A stretch of 64,000 nt of DNA from contig JAEUWC010000015.1 of the NCBI GenBank assembly GCA_016786465.1, positions 62,001-126,000 on the forward strand, in the 5' to 3' direction. This document shows, piece by piece, positions 25,232 through 42,054 of this stretch. The notes beneath the pieces were generated by a model. It searched no databases and was not told the DNA's origin. It worked only from the letters and a program-made list of their open reading frames with translations. This DNA comes from Bdellovibrionales bacterium (lineage in GTDB: Bacteria > Bdellovibrionota > UBA1018). Within the stretch, counting starts at the first letter, position 1, and each line of letters starts with the position of its first letter. The position numbers and the translations under genes are program-made.

Positions 25232-25762
25232 ATGCCTTCGCTGCCCGAAATTTTCCAGCAGATCAATGATCAGCACTTCGATGGTTTTCTAGAAATGCCG
25301 GAACTGGTCTGGAATTCCAGGCTTCGGTCGGCGGCAGGGCGTTTCATTCCAGGCCGTCGTTCCTGGCAGGCCATCTTGCGCGGGGATGCCTGCAAGGCGC
25401 AGATCGAAGTCGCTACCTACCTTCGTGAAATCGACCAAGCCGATCACCATATTCGCGATACTTTGGCGCATGAAATGATTCACTATTGGCTTTGGACCCG
25501 GCGCCGGCCCTATGGGCACACCGACGAATTTTGGGCCAAGATGCAGGCGATGGGCGTCAGTCGTTACAATCCGGTGCCCAAGCAAAGGCCCATCAAGTAC
25601 CACTACCAGTGCCCAAGTTGCCTGAAGACTTTTCCCGCGCGCCGAAAACTGGGGCGTTTGGCGTGCGCGGATTGTTGCAAAAAACATTCAGGCGGAAAGT
25701 TTGATTCGCGTTTTGTTCTGGAAATGCAGAAGGGGCAGCCCGAAGTATGTACCGCGAACTGA
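25232..25762 (+). CDS. SprT-like zinc metalloprotein
   Basis: 176 aa. The SprT-like core has the metalloprotease motif HEMIHYWLW (HExxH, about 79-87) with a third His in YGHTDEFW. A zinc ribbon follows (about 125-152: YQCPSCLKTF and ACADCC). Family members include Spartan-type DNA-protein crosslink proteases and bacterial SprT proteins of unknown substrate. The ribosome site GGTAGG lies 8 nt before the ATG, inside the short gap to the divergent mutS2 gene, so the promoter must lie in mutS2. It overlaps apaG by 16 bp. Confidence 0.85.
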   Translation: MPSLPEIFQQINDQHFDGFLEMPELVWNSRLRSAAGRFIPGRRSWQAILRGDACKAQIEVATYLREIDQADHHIRDTLAHEMIHYWLWTRRRPYGHTDEFWAKMQAMGVSRYNPVPKQRPIKYHYQCPSCLKTFPARRKLGRLACADCCKKHSGGKFDSRFVLEMQKGQPEVCTAN

Positions 25763-26133
25763 CGAACGGCATCGAAGTGGTCGCAGAACCCGCCTATGTT
25801 CCCGAAAAATCACAGCCCGAAAAAGGGGTGTATTTTTTCGCTTACCAAATCACGATCACGAACCGTGAAATGGGGATGGTTCAGCTTCGAAGCCGCCACT
25901 GGATCATCACCGACGGTCACGGGCAGGTTCACGAAGTTCAGGGTGAAGGGGTCGTGGGCGAACAGCCGCTTTTAGGAAACGGTGAAAGCTTCACTTATTC
26001 CAGTTTTTGTCCTTTGCCGACGCCGACAGGAAACATGCGCGGCACATACACGATGGAAGCCGTCGAGGAAGGCCAAAGCTTCCGCATCCGCATCCCGCTT
26101 TTCTTTCTTCGGGCAGATACGGGCACCGCATAA
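25747..26133 (+). CDS. apaG: ApaG protein
   Basis: 128 aa, one beta-sandwich domain of the ApaG family (DUF525). Recognisable elements are FFAYQITITNRE, LRSRHWIITDGHGQVHEV, GEGVVGEQPLLGNGESFTYSS and GNMRGTYTMEA. The function of ApaG is not settled; it has been linked to divalent cation export and Ap4A metabolism and resembles domains that bind other proteins or ligands. It starts inside the 3' end of the SprT-like gene, so the two are translated together. The TAA stop codon lies within the left arm of the long inverted repeat (from 26130). Confidence 0.92.
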   Translation: MYRELTNGIEVVAEPAYVPEKSQPEKGVYFFAYQITITNREMGMVQLRSRHWIITDGHGQVHEVQGEGVVGEQPLLGNGESFTYSSFCPLPTPTGNMRGTYTMEAVEEGQSFRIRIPLFFLRADTGTA

Positions 26134-26251
26134 AGGTGTCTGAGCACTTTTTGATGCTCGGTGCGTTAATTGCGACTTGATCCCGGACAGGAGCCCGAAA
26201 TCCAGTCTTCTTTAACGCACTGAGCATCAAAAAGTGCTCAGACACCTTTAT
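26130..26251. repeat. Long inverted repeat (40-bp arms, one mismatch)
   Basis: Arms 26130-26169 and 26212-26251 are reverse complements at 39 of 40 positions; the outer ends read ATAAAGGTGTCTGAGCAC. The 42-bp loop has a smaller imperfect inverted repeat (GACTTGAT against ATCCAGTC). The left arm contains the apaG stop codon. There is no U-run and no coding content. It looks like a small non-autonomous mobile or REP/MITE-type element; folded as RNA it would also block readthrough between the convergent genes. Confidence 0.9.
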
Positions 26252-26307
26252 GGGGGGGGATCGCCTCTGGACTACCTCGCTCTCGTTAAATGGGGGGGGA
26301 GAGAGCG
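26251..26307. repeat. Duplicated G8 tract and 7-bp stem
   Basis: TGGGGGGGGA occurs at 26251-26260 and again exactly at 26291-26300. CGCTCTC (26278-26284) and GAGAGCG (26301-26307) could pair around the second tract. The purpose is unknown; the G-runs are prone to slippage and are easy to mis-sequence. Confidence 0.6.
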
Positions 26308-26351: not shown

Positions 26352-27236
26352 TCAACCCTGGGGGAGGGATTTCGCGGACTCCGTGATTCCGTATTTTTTC
26401 ATCTTAAAGACCAGGGTTTCACGATCCATTTTGGCGCCCTGGCAGGTTTCCTCGATCTTCCAATCGTAGGTTTTCAAAAGTTCCGTCAGATAAATTTTTT
26501 CAAATTGTTCGCGCGTCGCGCGGAAATCAAATTGGTCATCGCCCAGATTCGGAAAGTCGGCCGCTTTAAGCGTATCGCCGGCCACGCGAAGGATCGCCAG
26601 ACGAAGCACGTTGCGAAGCTCGCGAAGGTTGCCAGGCCAAGTGTAGCTTTTCAGCTTTTCCCAAGCGTCGGTTGAAAGCTTGCGGACGTGTTCTTTCTTG
26701 GTTTCGCGGCAAATTTCTTTCAAAAGGCCTTCGACGATGTCTTCGAATTCTTCGATGCGTTCCGAAAGCGGCGGCATCACGATTCGGTATTCTTGAAACT
26801 TTTTCAAAAGCGCAGAATTAAAAAGTCCGCCTTGTGAACGGCTTTCCAAATTGTGGCTGGTCGTCGCGATGATTCGGGTGTGGATCAACATCGGAACCGT
26901 TGAATGCGCGACGGGAAGAGATTTTTTTTCTAGGTAGTGGAGCAGCACCTGCTGATCAGCGAGGGGGAATTCGCTTAGTTCATTGATCAGCAAGGTGCCG
27001 CCACGAGCTTCCACGATCTGGCCGGCGAGGGGGGATTTCAAATTCGCCAACCGGAAGGGACGCGATGCTAGAGGACTGTTTTCATGGATCCAGCGCGCGA
27101 TTTCGCCGCGGCCAGTTCCTGGGGAACCTTCGATCAATACCGGAGACTCATCCGCTTGCGCTGCAACAGTCGCAAGACTGCGCTGGCTTGGCGGAATAAA
27201 GTGCACTGTTTCTCTGGTCTCGGATTGATGAACCAA
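26352..27236 (-). CDS. Sigma54-activator-like AAA+ regulator lacking ATPase and GAFTGA motifs
   Basis: 294 aa. The TTG at 27236 is preferred as start because GAGGGGG lies 4 nt upstream. Alignment by eye to the intact NtrC-type protein at 40675 shows the same fold order, but the Walker A Lys is Arg (GSPGTGRG at 37-44), the Walker B Asp is Asn (GGTLLINEL), the GAFTGA loop and about 30 residues round it are deleted, and the FRxDLYYR arginine-finger segment reads FNSALLKKF. The Fis-type helix-turn-helix at the C-terminus (about 260-285) is kept. It therefore should bind DNA but not drive sigma54 open-complex formation; it may repress or act with partners. It is divergent from the XRE gene across 125 bp. 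Confidence 0.85.
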   Translation of the reverse strand: MVHQSETRETVHFIPPSQRSLATVAAQADESPVLIEGSPGTGRGEIARWIHENSPLASRPFRLANLKSPLAGQIVEARGGTLLINELSEFPLADQQVLLHYLEKKSLPVAHSTVPMLIHTRIIATTSHNLESRSQGGLFNSALLKKFQEYRIVMPPLSERIEEFEDIVEGLLKEICRETKKEHVRKLSTDAWEKLKSYTWPGNLRELRNVLRLAILRVAGDTLKAADFPNLGDDQFDFRATREQFEKIYLTELLKTYDWKIEETCQGAKMDRETLVFKMKKYGITESAKSLPQG

Positions 27237-27330
27237 GGTTCCCCCTCAATGGGAGCATGGGTAGCGCGCCTTTTTGTGATGGTCAATCTTAAATCTCGAT
27301 AACAGATAAATTCTGATGTTTTCAGGTGCA

Positions 27331-28360: not shown

Positions 28361-29425
28361 ATGCACTTAAAAAAATTCGGGTTTCTGGGTCGTGTTGCGT
28401 CTTTCCTTGTTCTTGCTTTGTGGACTTCATTAGCTTCGGCCGGTGGTCTGAATGGTGTGGGTCTTAAAGTCGGAATGGTTTTGGACAAAGGCGGTAAAGA
28501 CGACAAGTCTTTCAACGCTTCCGCATATTCCGGCGCAAATCGCGCAAAAGACGAACTGAAGATCCAATACAAGTACGTCGAAGCGACCGACGACAACGCG
28601 TTTGAACCCTTGCTTCGTTCTTTCGCGCAAAAAGATTTCGACTTGATCATCGGCGTTGGGTTTGCCCAAGCCGAAGCCATGGCTAAGGTTTCTAAGGCAT
28701 TCCCAAATAAGCTTTTTGCCATCGTTGATTCTGATGTCAAAGGCGCCAACGTGCGTTCGCTGATGTTCGAAGAACATGAAGGATCCTTTTTGATGGGAGC
28801 AGTCGCCGCCCTGAAATCAAAATCCGGCAAAATCGGATTCATCGGCGGAATGGCGATTCCTTTGATCAAGCGTTTTGAAATGGGGTTCGAAGCGGGCGTG
28901 AAGCACGTGAATCCGAAAGCCACCGTGACGAGCAACTTCGTGGGTGTCACGGCGGATTCTTGGAACAATCCCCCAAAGGCTAAAGAACTGGCATTGGGGC
29001 AGTTCAACAACGGTGTGGATGTGATTTTTCAAGCCGCAGGTGCTAGCGGGAGCGGCGTTTTTGATGCGGCTGAAGAAAAGAAAAAGTTCGCCATCGGCGT
29101 GGATTCCAACCAAAACTGGATGAAGCCCGGCGTGATTCTGACATCGATGATGAAGCGCGTGGATATCTCGGTTTATGAAACGATCAAAGAAGTCGCAGCC
29201 GCAAGAAACGCGGAAGGCAAACTTCCAGCTGACTTCAACAAGACCTTTGCGGGTCTAAAGCGATTTGGGTTGAAGAATTCGGGCGTTGATTACGCACTGG
29301 ATTCTCACAACCAAAAAGAAATGTCGGCCGACGTGAAAAAGAAGATCGACGACCTGAAAGGCCAGATCACTTCTGGCAAAATCAAAGTACCTGACTTCTA
29401 CACGGCGAAAGCTGGGAAGAAGTAA
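28361..29425 (+). CDS. BMP-family nucleoside-binding protein of ABC importer
   Basis: 354 aa with an N-terminal signal (about 1-27, ending TSLASA-GG). Unlike most family members there is no lipobox Cys, so it is probably a free periplasmic protein. The BMP/PnrA-like body starts with KVGMVLDKGGKDDKSFNASAYSGA (in two parts, about 34-57) and continues with GVGFAQAEAM, KIGFIGGMAIPLIKRFEMGFEAG and VDVIFQAAGASGSGVFDAA. Members bind purine nucleosides or related ligands. The ATPase gene follows 7 bp downstream, then two permeases, making a complete importer. Confidence 0.93.
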   Translation: MHLKKFGFLGRVASFLVLALWTSLASAGGLNGVGLKVGMVLDKGGKDDKSFNASAYSGANRAKDELKIQYKYVEATDDNAFEPLLRSFAQKDFDLIIGVGFAQAEAMAKVSKAFPNKLFAIVDSDVKGANVRSLMFEEHEGSFLMGAVAALKSKSGKIGFIGGMAIPLIKRFEMGFEAGVKHVNPKATVTSNFVGVTADSWNNPPKAKELALGQFNNGVDVIFQAAGASGSGVFDAAEEKKKFAIGVDSNQNWMKPGVILTSMMKRVDISVYETIKEVAAARNAEGKLPADFNKTFAGLKRFGLKNSGVDYALDSHNQKEMSADVKKKIDDLKGQITSGKIKVPDFYTAKAGKK

Positions 29426-29432
29426 ACGCGAA

Positions 29433-30992
29433 ATGTTTGCGATTCAGGTTCAAGGCCTGACCAAAGCCTTTGGCGATTGTGTAGCCAACGACCAGGTCAC
29501 GTTTTCGGTCAAAAAGGGAAGCATCCACGGGATTGTCGGCGAAAACGGCGCCGGCAAATCCACGGCGATGAAGCTTCTTTACGGACTGTACAAGCCGGAT
29601 TCTGGGTCCATCGTCATGGACGGAAAGCCACGTCAGTGGCGGACCCCGGCAGACGCGATATCGGCTGGGATCGGCATGGTCCACCAGCACTTTATGCTGT
29701 CGGAAACGGAAACGGTTTTGGACAACTTGATCCTTGGGGTCGAAAAAACGGCAGCATTGGGAAAGATCAACCGCAAGCAAATTGAAAAAGACTTGATGGC
29801 GTTGTCCCAGAAGTACCGAATGCCCCTGAATCTATCGGCACGCATTTCTGAAATCCCAGTGGGACTTCAGCAAAGGGTCGAAATTCTAAAGATGCTTTAT
29901 CGGGGCGCGGAATTCATGATTCTGGACGAACCGACCGCGGTTTTGACCCCGCAGGAAATTGAAGAACTTTTTAGAAACCTTCTTGAACTGAAAAAAGAAG
30001 GAAAGACGATTCTGATCATCACCCACAAGCTTCGCGAAGTGATGGCGATTACCGATCGCGTGACCGTGTTTCGCGCAGGAAAAGTCGAAGGGGACCTAGA
30101 AACCAAAGACACTTCTGTGCAGGATCTGGCCGACCGAATGGTTGGCCGAAGGGTTCATCTGACAATCGGTGGGGACCATCCCGAAGATTCAAAACTGGGA
30201 CATACGCCAAGAAGTGGTGGAGGAAGCTTGCGTCCGGCTTTGGAAATCAAAGGCCTTGGCCTTTTACGTCCGGGCGAATCCAAACCCAGACTGGATTCGA
30301 TCCACCTGACCGTTAGCCCAAAAGAAATCGTGGGGATCGCCGGTGTTGAAGGCAACGGCCAGTCCGAACTGATTCAAGCGATCTTTCATCCAAATAACCC
30401 ACGCCATCGGTCTTCCGGGCAGATTTCGATTTTGGGTCAAGACATTCAGGCCTTCGACACGCAGGCGATCAAGGAACTGGGCGTGGGCTGGATTCCTGAA
30501 GATCGCCACAAGGAAGGACTTTTGCTTCAGAAGTCTTTGCGCGAAAATTTTCTTTTAGGGCAAACGCGCCGCGAACAGTTTTGCAAAAACGGCTGGATTC
30601 GCTGGAATTCCGTCGACGCTTCCCTGAAACAGGGAATGGAAGACTTTGACGTTCGCCCCCGAAATATTCACGCGCTTGCAGGGGGCCTTTCAGGCGGAAA
30701 CCAACAAAAGCTGATCATCGCGCGCGAATTGGATCGCAGACCCAATTTTCTAGTCGTCGCACAGCCCACCCGGGGTGTGGACGTGGGCGCGATTGAATTC
30801 ATTCATCGCCGCCTGGTTGGCCTTCGTGAAGAAGGCGCGGGTATTCTTTTGATCAGTTCGGAATTAGATGAAATTCTGGCGCTTTCTGACCGGATCTTGG
30901 TCATGTATTCGGGCAAAATCGTCGCAGAATTTGCGCGCGGAGAAGTCGACGCCATGAAACTGGGCGTGAAAATGGGAGGCGGTCATGGCTAG
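29433..30992 (+). CDS. Nucleoside ABC importer ATP-binding protein (two NBDs)
   Basis: 519 aa, a tandem-domain ATPase of the sugar/nucleoside (RbsA/NupA-YufO) type. The first half has Walker [10 protein letters not shown] (about 35-43), a signature GLQQRVEIL and Walker [11 protein letters not shown]; the second has a degenerate Walker [11 protein letters not shown], signature [13 protein letters not shown] and [10 protein letters not shown]. It overlaps the permease gene by 8 bp. It powers import of the ligand caught by the BMP protein. Confidence 0.93.
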
Positions 30993-32052
30993 TCTTAAAA
31001 TCTGGCTGATTCGGCTTCGCCCCATCATCGCCGCTTTGCTGGGACTTTCATTGGGAATTGGGATTACGGCCTTAGCTGGGGAAAGTCCCGCGCACGTGGT
31101 CGCCGTGTTGGTGAAAAGTGCCTTGGGTTCCCCTTACGATCTAGGGATGACTTTGTTTTACACAACCCCTTTGGTTTTCACGGGTCTTTCGGTCGCGATG
31201 GCGTTTCAGTGCGGACTTTTCAATATCGGTGCAGAAGGCCAACTGGCGATGGGTGCGCTTTGGGCTGCGGTACTTGGAATCGTGATGCCGGGGCTTCCTG
31301 GTTTCGTAGCTCCTGTATTTGCGGTCCTGGCTTGCATTTTGGGTGGGGCAGCTTGGGGAGCCATCCCGGGTTGGCTTCGCGCGAAGCGCGGAAGTCATGA
31401 AGTGATCAATACGATCATGATGAATTTCGTGTCGGCGGGTGTTTGCAGCTACGTGACTTTGTATGTTTTTCGAAACACCGAAGGACAAAATCCAGAAACG
31501 CTTCCGATCGCGGCTGCTTATCAGCTTTCGCAGTTTTCAAGTTTTGGGGGCGCACCCGTTTCGTGGGCATTGATTTTGGCGGTCTTGGTTTGGGCGGGTT
31601 GTATCGTTTTTCTTCGCAAGACGCGGCTGGGCTTTCAGCTGATGTCGGTGGGCGAAAATGAATCCGCCGCCGAAGCTTCAGGGATTTCGTCGCCCAAGAT
31701 GCGGATTCTGGCCATGGCGATTGCAGGGGGCCTGGCCGGCCTGGTCGGAGTCGGCGAAGTCCTGGGAAATGCGCACAAGTTCAAGATGGGGTTTTCGGCA
31801 GACTTTGGCTTCATCGGAATAGCAGTTGCGCTTTTGGCGCGAGGGCGCCCCGAAGGTGTGCTTCCGTCGGCTTTTCTTTTCGGCGCCCTTCATAAAGGAA
31901 CCGCGGATCTGGACTTTGAAACCACGCACGTGACTCGCGAATTGGCGTTGATTCTTCAGGCCCTGGTGATTTTGTCGGTTTCAGCTGACGGGCTTTGGGA
32001 TTGGATGAACCGGATCGGCGTGAAGAAACGCACCGGAAAGGCGGCATCATGA
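30985..32052 (+). CDS. Nucleoside ABC importer permease, first subunit
   Basis: 355 aa with about eight to ten membrane helices. The BPD_transp_2-type features GLFNIGAEGQLAMGALWAA (about 76-94) and GSHEVINTIMMNFV mark it as the branched-chain/nucleoside-type permease (YufP/NupB-like). ATGA overlap with the second permease shows coupled translation. Confidence 0.92.
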   Translation: MASLKIWLIRLRPIIAALLGLSLGIGITALAGESPAHVVAVLVKSALGSPYDLGMTLFYTTPLVFTGLSVAMAFQCGLFNIGAEGQLAMGALWAAVLGIVMPGLPGFVAPVFAVLACILGGAAWGAIPGWLRAKRGSHEVINTIMMNFVSAGVCSYVTLYVFRNTEGQNPETLPIAAAYQLSQFSSFGGAPVSWALILAVLVWAGCIVFLRKTRLGFQLMSVGENESAAEASGISSPKMRILAMAIAGGLAGLVGVGEVLGNAHKFKMGFSADFGFIGIAVALLARGRPEGVLPSAFLFGALHKGTADLDFETTHVTRELALILQALVILSVSADGLWDWMNRIGVKKRTGKAAS

Positions 32053-32942
32053 ATTTAGATTCGCTTTTGGACTTCAGTTCAGCTGTTCTTCGCGGGATGA
32101 CGCCGATCCTTTTTGCGGCTCTGGGCGGTTACCTTTCCGAAAGATCCGGCGTGATCAATATCGCATTAGAAGGAATGATGTTGATTGGAAGTTTCTTTGG
32201 TGTGCTTGCTGCCCTGTCGTTTCACGGGTCGGGTGCACCTTGGATGGGTTTTTTGGCGGCTGGGGTCGCAGGCGGAATTTTTGCTGCGCTTTATGGCCTT
32301 TTCGTCATTCGGTATCGCGCCAACCAAATCGTTGCCGGAACCGCGATGAATCTATTGGCTGCGGGGCTCACGCCTTTCTTTTGCAAGATCGTTTTTGATT
32401 CGACCGGGAACACTCCTAGTCTTCCCCTGGAAGATCGCTTTCAGTATTTTCCGATGTTTCTTTCATTCGGTCTGGCCTTTGGACTTCACTGGATGTCACG
32501 TCAGACACCGATGGGGCTTTGGATTTCTTTCGCAGGTGAAAACCCTGCCGCCCTGGCGACCGCCGGAATCCGGGTCAACCGACTTCGCACTTGGGCCGTG
32601 ATTGCTAGCGGTGTTTTAGCAGGGTGGGGCGGGGCCAGTCTTTCGATTTGTCTTTCATCGTCCTTTTCCAGAAACATGACCGCCGGTCGCGGATTCATGG
32701 CGCTTGCCGCATTAATCTTTGGAAAGTGGCGGCCGCTTCCTGCGATGGGTGCATGCTTGTTTTTTGCGATTTCCGACACGGTTCAGATGCGCCTTCAGGG
32801 CGTACCCGTATTTGGCGGGCAACCGATCCCAGTTGAATTCATTCAAATGATTCCTTACGTGGCAACGATGTTGATTCTGGCGGGGTGGGTCGGTCAATCC
32901 CGCGCGCCGAAATCACTGGGGTTGCCGTTTCACCAAGGCTGA
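32049..32942 (+). CDS. Nucleoside ABC importer permease, second subunit
   Basis: 297 aa from ATG 32049, which overlaps the stop of the first permease. About eight membrane helices; SGVINIALEGMMLIGSFFGV near residue 32 and RANQIVAGTAMNLLAAG around 90-105 match the YufQ/NupC-like partner subunit. It completes the importer; the next gene, in the same direction, starts 18 bp on but encodes an unrelated envelope protein. Confidence 0.92.
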   Translation: MNLDSLLDFSSAVLRGMTPILFAALGGYLSERSGVINIALEGMMLIGSFFGVLAALSFHGSGAPWMGFLAAGVAGGIFAALYGLFVIRYRANQIVAGTAMNLLAAGLTPFFCKIVFDSTGNTPSLPLEDRFQYFPMFLSFGLAFGLHWMSRQTPMGLWISFAGENPAALATAGIRVNRLRTWAVIASGVLAGWGGASLSICLSSSFSRNMTAGRGFMALAALIFGKWRPLPAMGACLFFAISDTVQMRLQGVPVFGGQPIPVEFIQMIPYVATMLILAGWVGQSRAPKSLGLPFHQG

Positions 32943-40674: not shown

Positions 40675-42054
40675 ATGCGTATCTTGGTCATCGACGACGA
40701 TGAAGTCATGCGGAAACTGGTCCGCGAAGTCCTGTTGAAGGATGGACATCAAGTCGAAATGGCGGGAAGTGGTGAAGCCGCGATCCCTTTTCTAAAAAAA
40801 GAAGTCTTCCCAATCGTCGTCACTGACGTTCGCATGCTGGACTTGGGCGGGATGGACGTTCTTCGCGAAGTGAAGAAAAGAAATCCCGAATCCGTCGTGA
40901 TTTTGATGACCGGTTTCGGAAGCATGGACGGAGCCATTGAAGCCATTCGCGAAGGCGCCTTTGATTACATCAGTAAGCCCTTCAAGATCGATGACCTGAA
41001 GGCGCTGGTCAAAAGGGCCGCGGATCATTGGGAATCGCTTCGCAGTCGACCCAAAGGGACGCAGCAAACGGGAAGCCCGGCTTTAGACGTCAGCCAAAAA
41101 GGATTGATCGGGAAGTCCGCCAAGATTATTGAAATTTATAAGACTTTGGCACGTGCGGCTTTAAGTCAAAGCAACGTCCTAGTGACCGGGGAAAGTGGAA
41201 CCGGAAAAGAATTGGTTGCGCGTGCAATTCATGAAAATTCGCAACGGCGACAAAAACCCTTCGTTGCAGTGAACTGCGGCGCCCTTGCCGAAAATCTTTT
41301 AGAAAGCGAACTTTTTGGGCACGTGCGCGGAGCATTCACAGGTGCGACCCACGACAAAAAAGGGCTTTTTGAAGAAGCCAATGGGGGAACGCTTTTCCTA
41401 GACGAAATCGGAGACGTTTCAGCCCCTCTTCAGATCAAGCTTCTGCGCGTGCTTCAAGAAGGTGAAATGAAGCCGGTGGGCTCGAACGAAACCCGCCGCG
41501 TGGATGTTCGTTTGATTGCGGCGACCCACCGGGATTTGGGCGCTTTGGTGAGCCAAGAAAAGTTTCGCGAAGACCTTTATTATCGGCTGAAAGTGATTGA
41601 AATTTCGATCCCTCCGCTAAGGGAACGAAAAGAAGACATCCCGCAATTGGTCGAAGTTTTCTTGATTCGCTATTCCGAAAAAAACGGAAAGCAGATTTCG
41701 CACGTTTCAGACGAAGCAATGAAGTACCTGAACGGATATTCCTGGCCGGGAAACGTCCGGGAACTGGAACATTCGATTGAACGCGCAGTCGCCTTGACCA
41801 AGACTTCGGTTCTTTACCCCGAAGACTTGCCACTTGAAATTCGAGAACCTTCAAGCCCTGATTTAGCTGGGACAGGTAGTGGTGTTGCGGGAAATCAGCC
41901 GAATTCCTTGGAAGATATTGAAAAACTTCACATCCTGCGGGTCCTTCAGGAAAACGGCTACAACAAATCCAAAGCCGCCGATGCGCTGGGAATTGACCGA
42001 GCTACCCTGTATCGGAAGGCATCACGTTACGGAATTGATTTGCGTGGAAAATAG
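40675..42054 (+). CDS. NtrC-family sigma54-dependent response regulator
   Basis: 459 aa, complete. Receiver domain 1-120 with acidic pocket DDDE and phospho-acceptor D51 (VVTDVRM); AAA+ with Walker A GESGTGKE (172-179), GAFTGA (219-224), Walker [12 protein letters not shown] and arginine finger FREDLYYRL; Fis-type HTH at the C-terminus ([18 protein letters not shown]). It activates sigma54 promoters when phosphorylated by the kinase just upstream. Overlaps the Nudix gene by 11 bp. Confidence 0.96.

Follow-up and report, generated by a model that had tools for sequence, protein, structure and literature searches.

The stretch of DNA that was analysed (the window, 64,000 nucleotides) carries an open frame for a protein resembling a degenerate enhancer-binding protein (EBP), with the genes of a BMP-type importer on one side and those of SprT- and MutS2-like proteins on the other (Table 1). 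The frame and ribosome-binding site predicted by the first-pass annotation were both found: 294 codons open with TTG, and GAGGGGG lies four bases upstream. However, the position of this start is uncertain, because the relatives start at M-E-x-V-H-F-I-P, about 8 residues downstream, and the AlphaFold2 model has low confidence for residues 1-8. The Shine-Dalgarno and start region (27229-27244) could pair with the gene's own Walker A coding segment (27121-27136) over 16 nt that are 88% complementary and 92 nt apart, which may be chance. A 61-nt inverted repeat (26126-26255, 85% complementary), situated between the regulator gene's 3' end and apaG, folds to -85.5 kcal/mol (z -14), has related pieces at about 10 other places in the genome, and resembles a REP or MITE-like element.

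Table 1. Coordinates of the regulator gene, its motifs, upstream elements and neighbours in the window.
Feature	Position	Strand	Basis or remark
Degenerate EBP-like regulator	26352..27236	-	294 aa, TTG start
Shine-Dalgarno-like GAGGGGG	27241..27247	-	
Promoter-like TTGAC-N14-GCGCTA, right half of dyad only	27262..27286	-	window version of the orthologues' TTGAC-N14-GCGTTA
Walker A remnant GSPGTGR, residues 37-43, with R for K	27108..27128	-	alignment and residue census
Point between N65 and L66 where 23 residues (loop L1, including GAFTGA) are deleted	27041..27042	-	alignment
Walker B remnant GGTLLINEL, residues 79-87, with N for D and the E intact	26976..27002	-	alignment and census
Arginine-finger segment FNSALLKKF, residues 139-147, with N140 and K146 for the two arginines	26796..26822	-	alignment and census
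PGNLREL, residues 201-207, with the sensor II arginine (R205) intact	26616..26636	-	residue census
C-terminal Fis-type HTH, residues 241-283	26388..26516	-	weak Pfam match, three helices in model
Divergent XRE-type HTH regulator, 329 aa	27362..28351	+	occupies the slot in some genera only
BMP-family substrate-binding protein (bmpA)	28361..29425	+	domain models
Importer ATP-binding protein, two ABC cassettes	29433..30992	+	domain models
Importer permease 1	30985..32052	+	domain models
Importer permease 2	32049..32942	+	synteny
SprT-like protein	25232..25762	+	Pfam; long-standing neighbour in f1, f3, f5 and f6
Presumably MutS2-like protein	22861..25215	-	synteny; near neighbour in f1 and f5

In Pfam searches, the window protein matched Sigma54_activat (PF00158, 63 bits), Sigma54_activ_2 (PF14532, 62 bits) and the lid domain AAA_lid_14 (PF25601, 54 bits), all above the cut-off. 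The fold said to be kept is therefore present together with its lid, while the Fis HTH, claimed along with it, scored 19.6 bits with HTH_8 against a cut-off of 22 and is represented by three helices in the AlphaFold2 model. The architecture is an AAA+ core followed by a putative Fis-type HTH, without a receiver or any other sensor domain.

Motifs were called from an alignment of the window protein with the 16 other EBPs of its genome, including the intact EBP of the window (L004, about 41104-41604). In comparison with them, the protein has R43 for the Walker A lysine and N85-E86 for the Walker B DE pair, a gap of 23 columns exactly spans the L1/GAFTGA loop, and the two arginines of the finger motif FR(E/D)DLxxRL are replaced by N140 and K146. 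The four lesions announced from the sequence were all borne out. Nevertheless, the statement that all ATPase features are lost was too strong, since G37, G40, T41 and G42 of the P-loop, E86 of Walker B, T126 at sensor I and R205 at the sensor II position are still present, and the Walker A lysine is retained in most of the kin. With respect to a functional bEBP, the window copy has the AAA+ fold and lid (Pfam; Z 20-21 to NtrC1, FlrC and PspF) and lacks the complete ATPase site (Walker A lysine, Walker B DE, two fingers); the GAFTGA loop L1, which contacts sigma54, is missing from it and from the orthologues spanning the site. A bEBP-derived AAA+ core without GAFTGA is what characterizes the GAFTGA-less relatives of EBPs, and the window copy has it. 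By its motifs, it ranks with the most degraded family members that have the HTH. Another GAFTGA-less NtrC-like response regulator (L016, G000:C4:75671-76093; 436 aa), encoded beside a histidine kinase, retains the Walker A lysine, the DE pair and finger 1.

Of the 55 genomes of the order, 46 carry an orthologue (36-59% identity), in some cases as a fragment at a contig end. Outside the order, no clear orthologue was obtained and the matches were ordinary EBPs only. A wider spread was considered and discarded: a contig scan gave one true orthologue (51%) among the matches listed, and the others, with 26-35% identity, look like ordinary EBPs. In the tree, the family forms a single clade (support 100/100) that a long branch sets apart from the 16 other EBPs of the genome. 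Residues were then counted in 47 sequences, where partial ones leave gaps (f1-f6 denote taxonomic families within the order, g3 and g26 genera, and G numbers genomes). The expectation that homologues share the losses held for GAFTGA, deleted in every orthologue that spans it, and for the finger 1 arginine, present in none of the sequences. It failed for the Walker A lysine, replaced in just three of the sequences covering it (window, G039, G004), the K-to-R change needing three steps on a tree whose deep forks are unresolved, and for the Walker B aspartate, which is kept in 13 of 13 f5 sequences and in none elsewhere (P, S, N, H, Q, A, L or E instead). At the second Walker B acid, f5 has D and most f1 sequences have E; at finger 2, f5 has R, and K predominates in f1. 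Every sequence that covers the sensor II position has the arginine there. Since PspF E108D supports transcription on duplex DNA like the wild type with reduced ATPase activity (PMC4132715), the f5 proteins may hydrolyse some ATP. Nucleotide binding probably still matters in the family, because most relatives retain the Walker A lysine. On this comparison, we are dealing with a regulator family descended from sigma54-dependent activators and long maintained across one Bdellovibrio-like order.

The gene neighbourhood was compared across the order. In f1 and f3, at least 25 genomes have the regulator gene next to a BMP-type importer operon. The two are usually divergent, in some genomes separated by the XRE gene, and in G017 they are co-directional. 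In several f5 genomes, the importer lies 20-37 kb away on the same contig, and the divergent neighbour of the regulator is a protein of 277-297 aa with a signal-like N-terminus. The XRE regulator of the window gave weak HTH matches and no other Pfam or NCBIfam family. An XRE gene and a nucleoside importer had been proposed as neighbours, and both an XRE gene and a BMP-type importer do adjoin; "nucleoside", in turn, is a guess, as the importer matches BMP-family models and the putative B6 transporter model stayed below the cut-off. A strict coupling of gene and importer was rejected: bmpA occurs without the gene in G010, G011, G013, G014, G016, G035 and G040, and genomes such as G037 and G039 have the gene but gave no match to bmpA. 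Synteny is established here, and the conserved adjacency suggests that this gene may regulate the neighbouring importer, with the reservation that bmpA without the gene and the gene away from bmpA both occur.

The AlphaFold2 model, built with 22 orthologues, reached a pLDDT of 86 and a pTM of 0.74, with the HTH helices modelled. Foldseek and VIA-align placed the window protein with NtrC1, FlrC, FleQ, PspF, NtrX and VpsR, the VIA-align Z being about 20-21 over about 220 residues to NtrC1, FlrC, FleQ, PspF and VpsR; such likeness of fold carries no information on activity. PspF (core fold Z about 20.9) has, as the window protein, a minimal AAA+ core plus HTH and no N-terminal regulatory domain, but it activates sigma54 and has GAFTGA, both Walker motifs and the two fingers intact. 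VpsR possesses a receiver-like N-terminal domain, TyrR, DhaR and HupR have N-terminal sensor domains, and in FleQ a segment ahead of the core binds c-di-GMP.

EBPs without GAFTGA that act at sigma70 promoters have been described, namely VpsR of Vibrio cholerae and the NtrC proteins of Caulobacter and Rhodobacter capsulatus, which carry a deletion of loop L1/GAFTGA (PMC10274813), as well as the sigma70-dependent EBP homologues TyrR, DhaR and HupR, in which GAFTGA is defective (PMC3162934). VpsR shares the AAA+ fold (Z 20.2 over 219 residues) and binds c-di-GMP (PMC10714721); the window protein differs from it in lacking an N-terminal domain and in the loss of the two arginine fingers. Both NtrC proteins retain a receiver domain, and that of Caulobacter requires ATP binding and hydrolysis and has a deletion of 8 residues versus 23 in the window protein. 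TyrR, DhaR and HupR are not orthologues of the family. The library searched held no paper on Bdellovibrio together with GAFTGA. By sequence, the family fits this GAFTGA-less, sigma70-acting kind, and in its motifs and architecture it differs from the known examples: it has no N-terminal domain, both fingers are lost in most of f1, and the HTH was dropped in one clade.

Family membership, motif losses and fold being established, the reading that we favour, with confidence somewhat better than even, is that the gene encodes one of the minimal EBP-derived regulators of an ancient family found across the order, a protein that is sigma54-independent, performs no productive ATP hydrolysis and likely binds DNA via its HTH, in the manner of VpsR, TyrR, HupR or the NtrC proteins without GAFTGA. 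We infer the loss of hydrolysis, the sigma70 action, the target promoters and the direction of control. Without loop L1, the protein would be unable to engage RNA polymerase-sigma54, and with R43, N85, N140 and K146 no productive ATP hydrolysis would take place in a ring. The HTH would bind DNA, and the AAA+ core would mediate oligomerisation and might also act as a switch that senses a nucleotide or ligand, regulation taking place at sigma70-type promoters. In the family of the window copy, the likeliest target would be the divergent (XRE-)bmpA importer promoter, possibly also the gene's own promoter. The loss of loop L1 is not due to loss of sigma54, because the genome encodes it; no convincing sigma54 (-24/-12) promoter was seen in the ten upstream regions scanned.

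A refinement of this reading, possible although we regard it as tentative, is a ligand-gated switch in which a nucleotide or cyclic dinucleotide would occupy the AAA+ pocket unhydrolysed and thereby control DNA binding as in VpsR or FleQ. The P-loop and the sensor II arginine are kept, nearly all relatives have the lysine, the protein has no other sensor domain, and its fold matches VpsR and FleQ; however, its N-terminus looks too short for a FleQ-like c-di-GMP-binding segment ahead of the core, and the window copy itself carries R for K.

A different use of the core is raised by the proteins of G015, G018, G024, G028, G032 and G037, which are about 250-270 aa long and stop in the linker ahead of the HTH, with no HTH remnant evident in the three downstream frames. 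They form the sister clade of the window copy (94/85), with a single loss of the HTH on the tree, and they keep the Walker A lysine and the AAA+ core and, in several cases, the bmp neighbourhood. Because this clade dropped the HTH, DNA binding is not required for all functions of the family. The AAA+ core could then be the working part, acting by protein contact, either through mixed oligomers with an intact EBP or by binding to another regulator; the HTH would be an accessory dropped in some lineages. The clean end before the HTH and its single loss agree with this, but the HTH-less copies evolve faster (long branches; pN/pS about 0.37 for G028/G032, L063/L064), indicating by this measure a constraint that is weaker but present. 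Moreover, the absence of the two inter-subunit fingers should weaken the normal ring interface of EBPs, and the partner is only postulated. The core-only clade fits a partner role in mixed oligomers without demonstrating it, and we consider this alternative unlikely. Equally doubtful in our view is the broader proposal of an order-wide pseudo-ATPase offshoot of sigma54 activators with graded catalytic losses, whose HTH-less clade would be a stand-alone inactive AAA+ subunit binding another regulator or ligand.

Constraint on the family is established by the close pairs of orthologues, with dN/dS of about 0.01-0.07 in f5 and genus g26 and 0.20 in one f1 pair (g3); no genome of the same genus as the window copy is among the pairs. 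The end branch of the window copy is ordinary (0.55 versus a median of 0.45) and its identity to its kin typical. A pseudogene in early decay, for which one might cite the genomes of the family that miss the orthologue, the extra losses of the window copy in relation to its kin and the lack of a same-genus genome to gauge its own selection, is very improbable given the open frame, the Shine-Dalgarno, losses conserved order-wide, this ordinary branch and the strong purifying selection on orthologues; lone decay of the window copy is ruled out by the orthologues and their selection. The claim of repurposing rather than decay is well supported by the order-wide orthologues, the purifying selection in close relatives, the synteny and the confident fold.

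Upstream of the HTH-bearing orthologues of f1, f3 and f6, a common TTGAC-N14-GCGTTA with an inner YGC-N3-GCG dyad was detected. TTGAC-N14-19-GCGTTA was present in 18 of 33 upstream regions and absent from 553 kb of flanking strand-bases; genome-wide, the pattern was not enriched over the control, so it is not a general promoter. The full palindrome TAACGC-N3-GCGTTA gave 23 sites versus 4 control sites in 25 genomes, four of them in G028. A dyad of the type TAAYGC-N3-GCRTTA also lies across the promoter or start of a conserved small XRE gene beside recG in many genomes (L217 1991-2512, L218, L219, L234 and orthologues L237-L256), and at a few secreted-protein genes. The dyad as operator of the regulator itself was discarded, as G028 has the full palindrome with a copy lacking the HTH and a similar dyad occurs at the recG-side XRE gene. 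For these reasons, it is perhaps the site of another regulator; that the recG-side XRE regulator binds it and acts on this gene may be so, but this should be taken as a lead only.

AAA+ activators serve as the standard textbook example of transcription powered by ATP, and this family provides many orthologues at different stages of loss. The losses, of the polymerase contact and of catalytic residues, occur under continued strong selection. With about 290 aa and no sensor domain, the protein is a very small test object for the use of the AAA+ fold once hydrolysis is gone.
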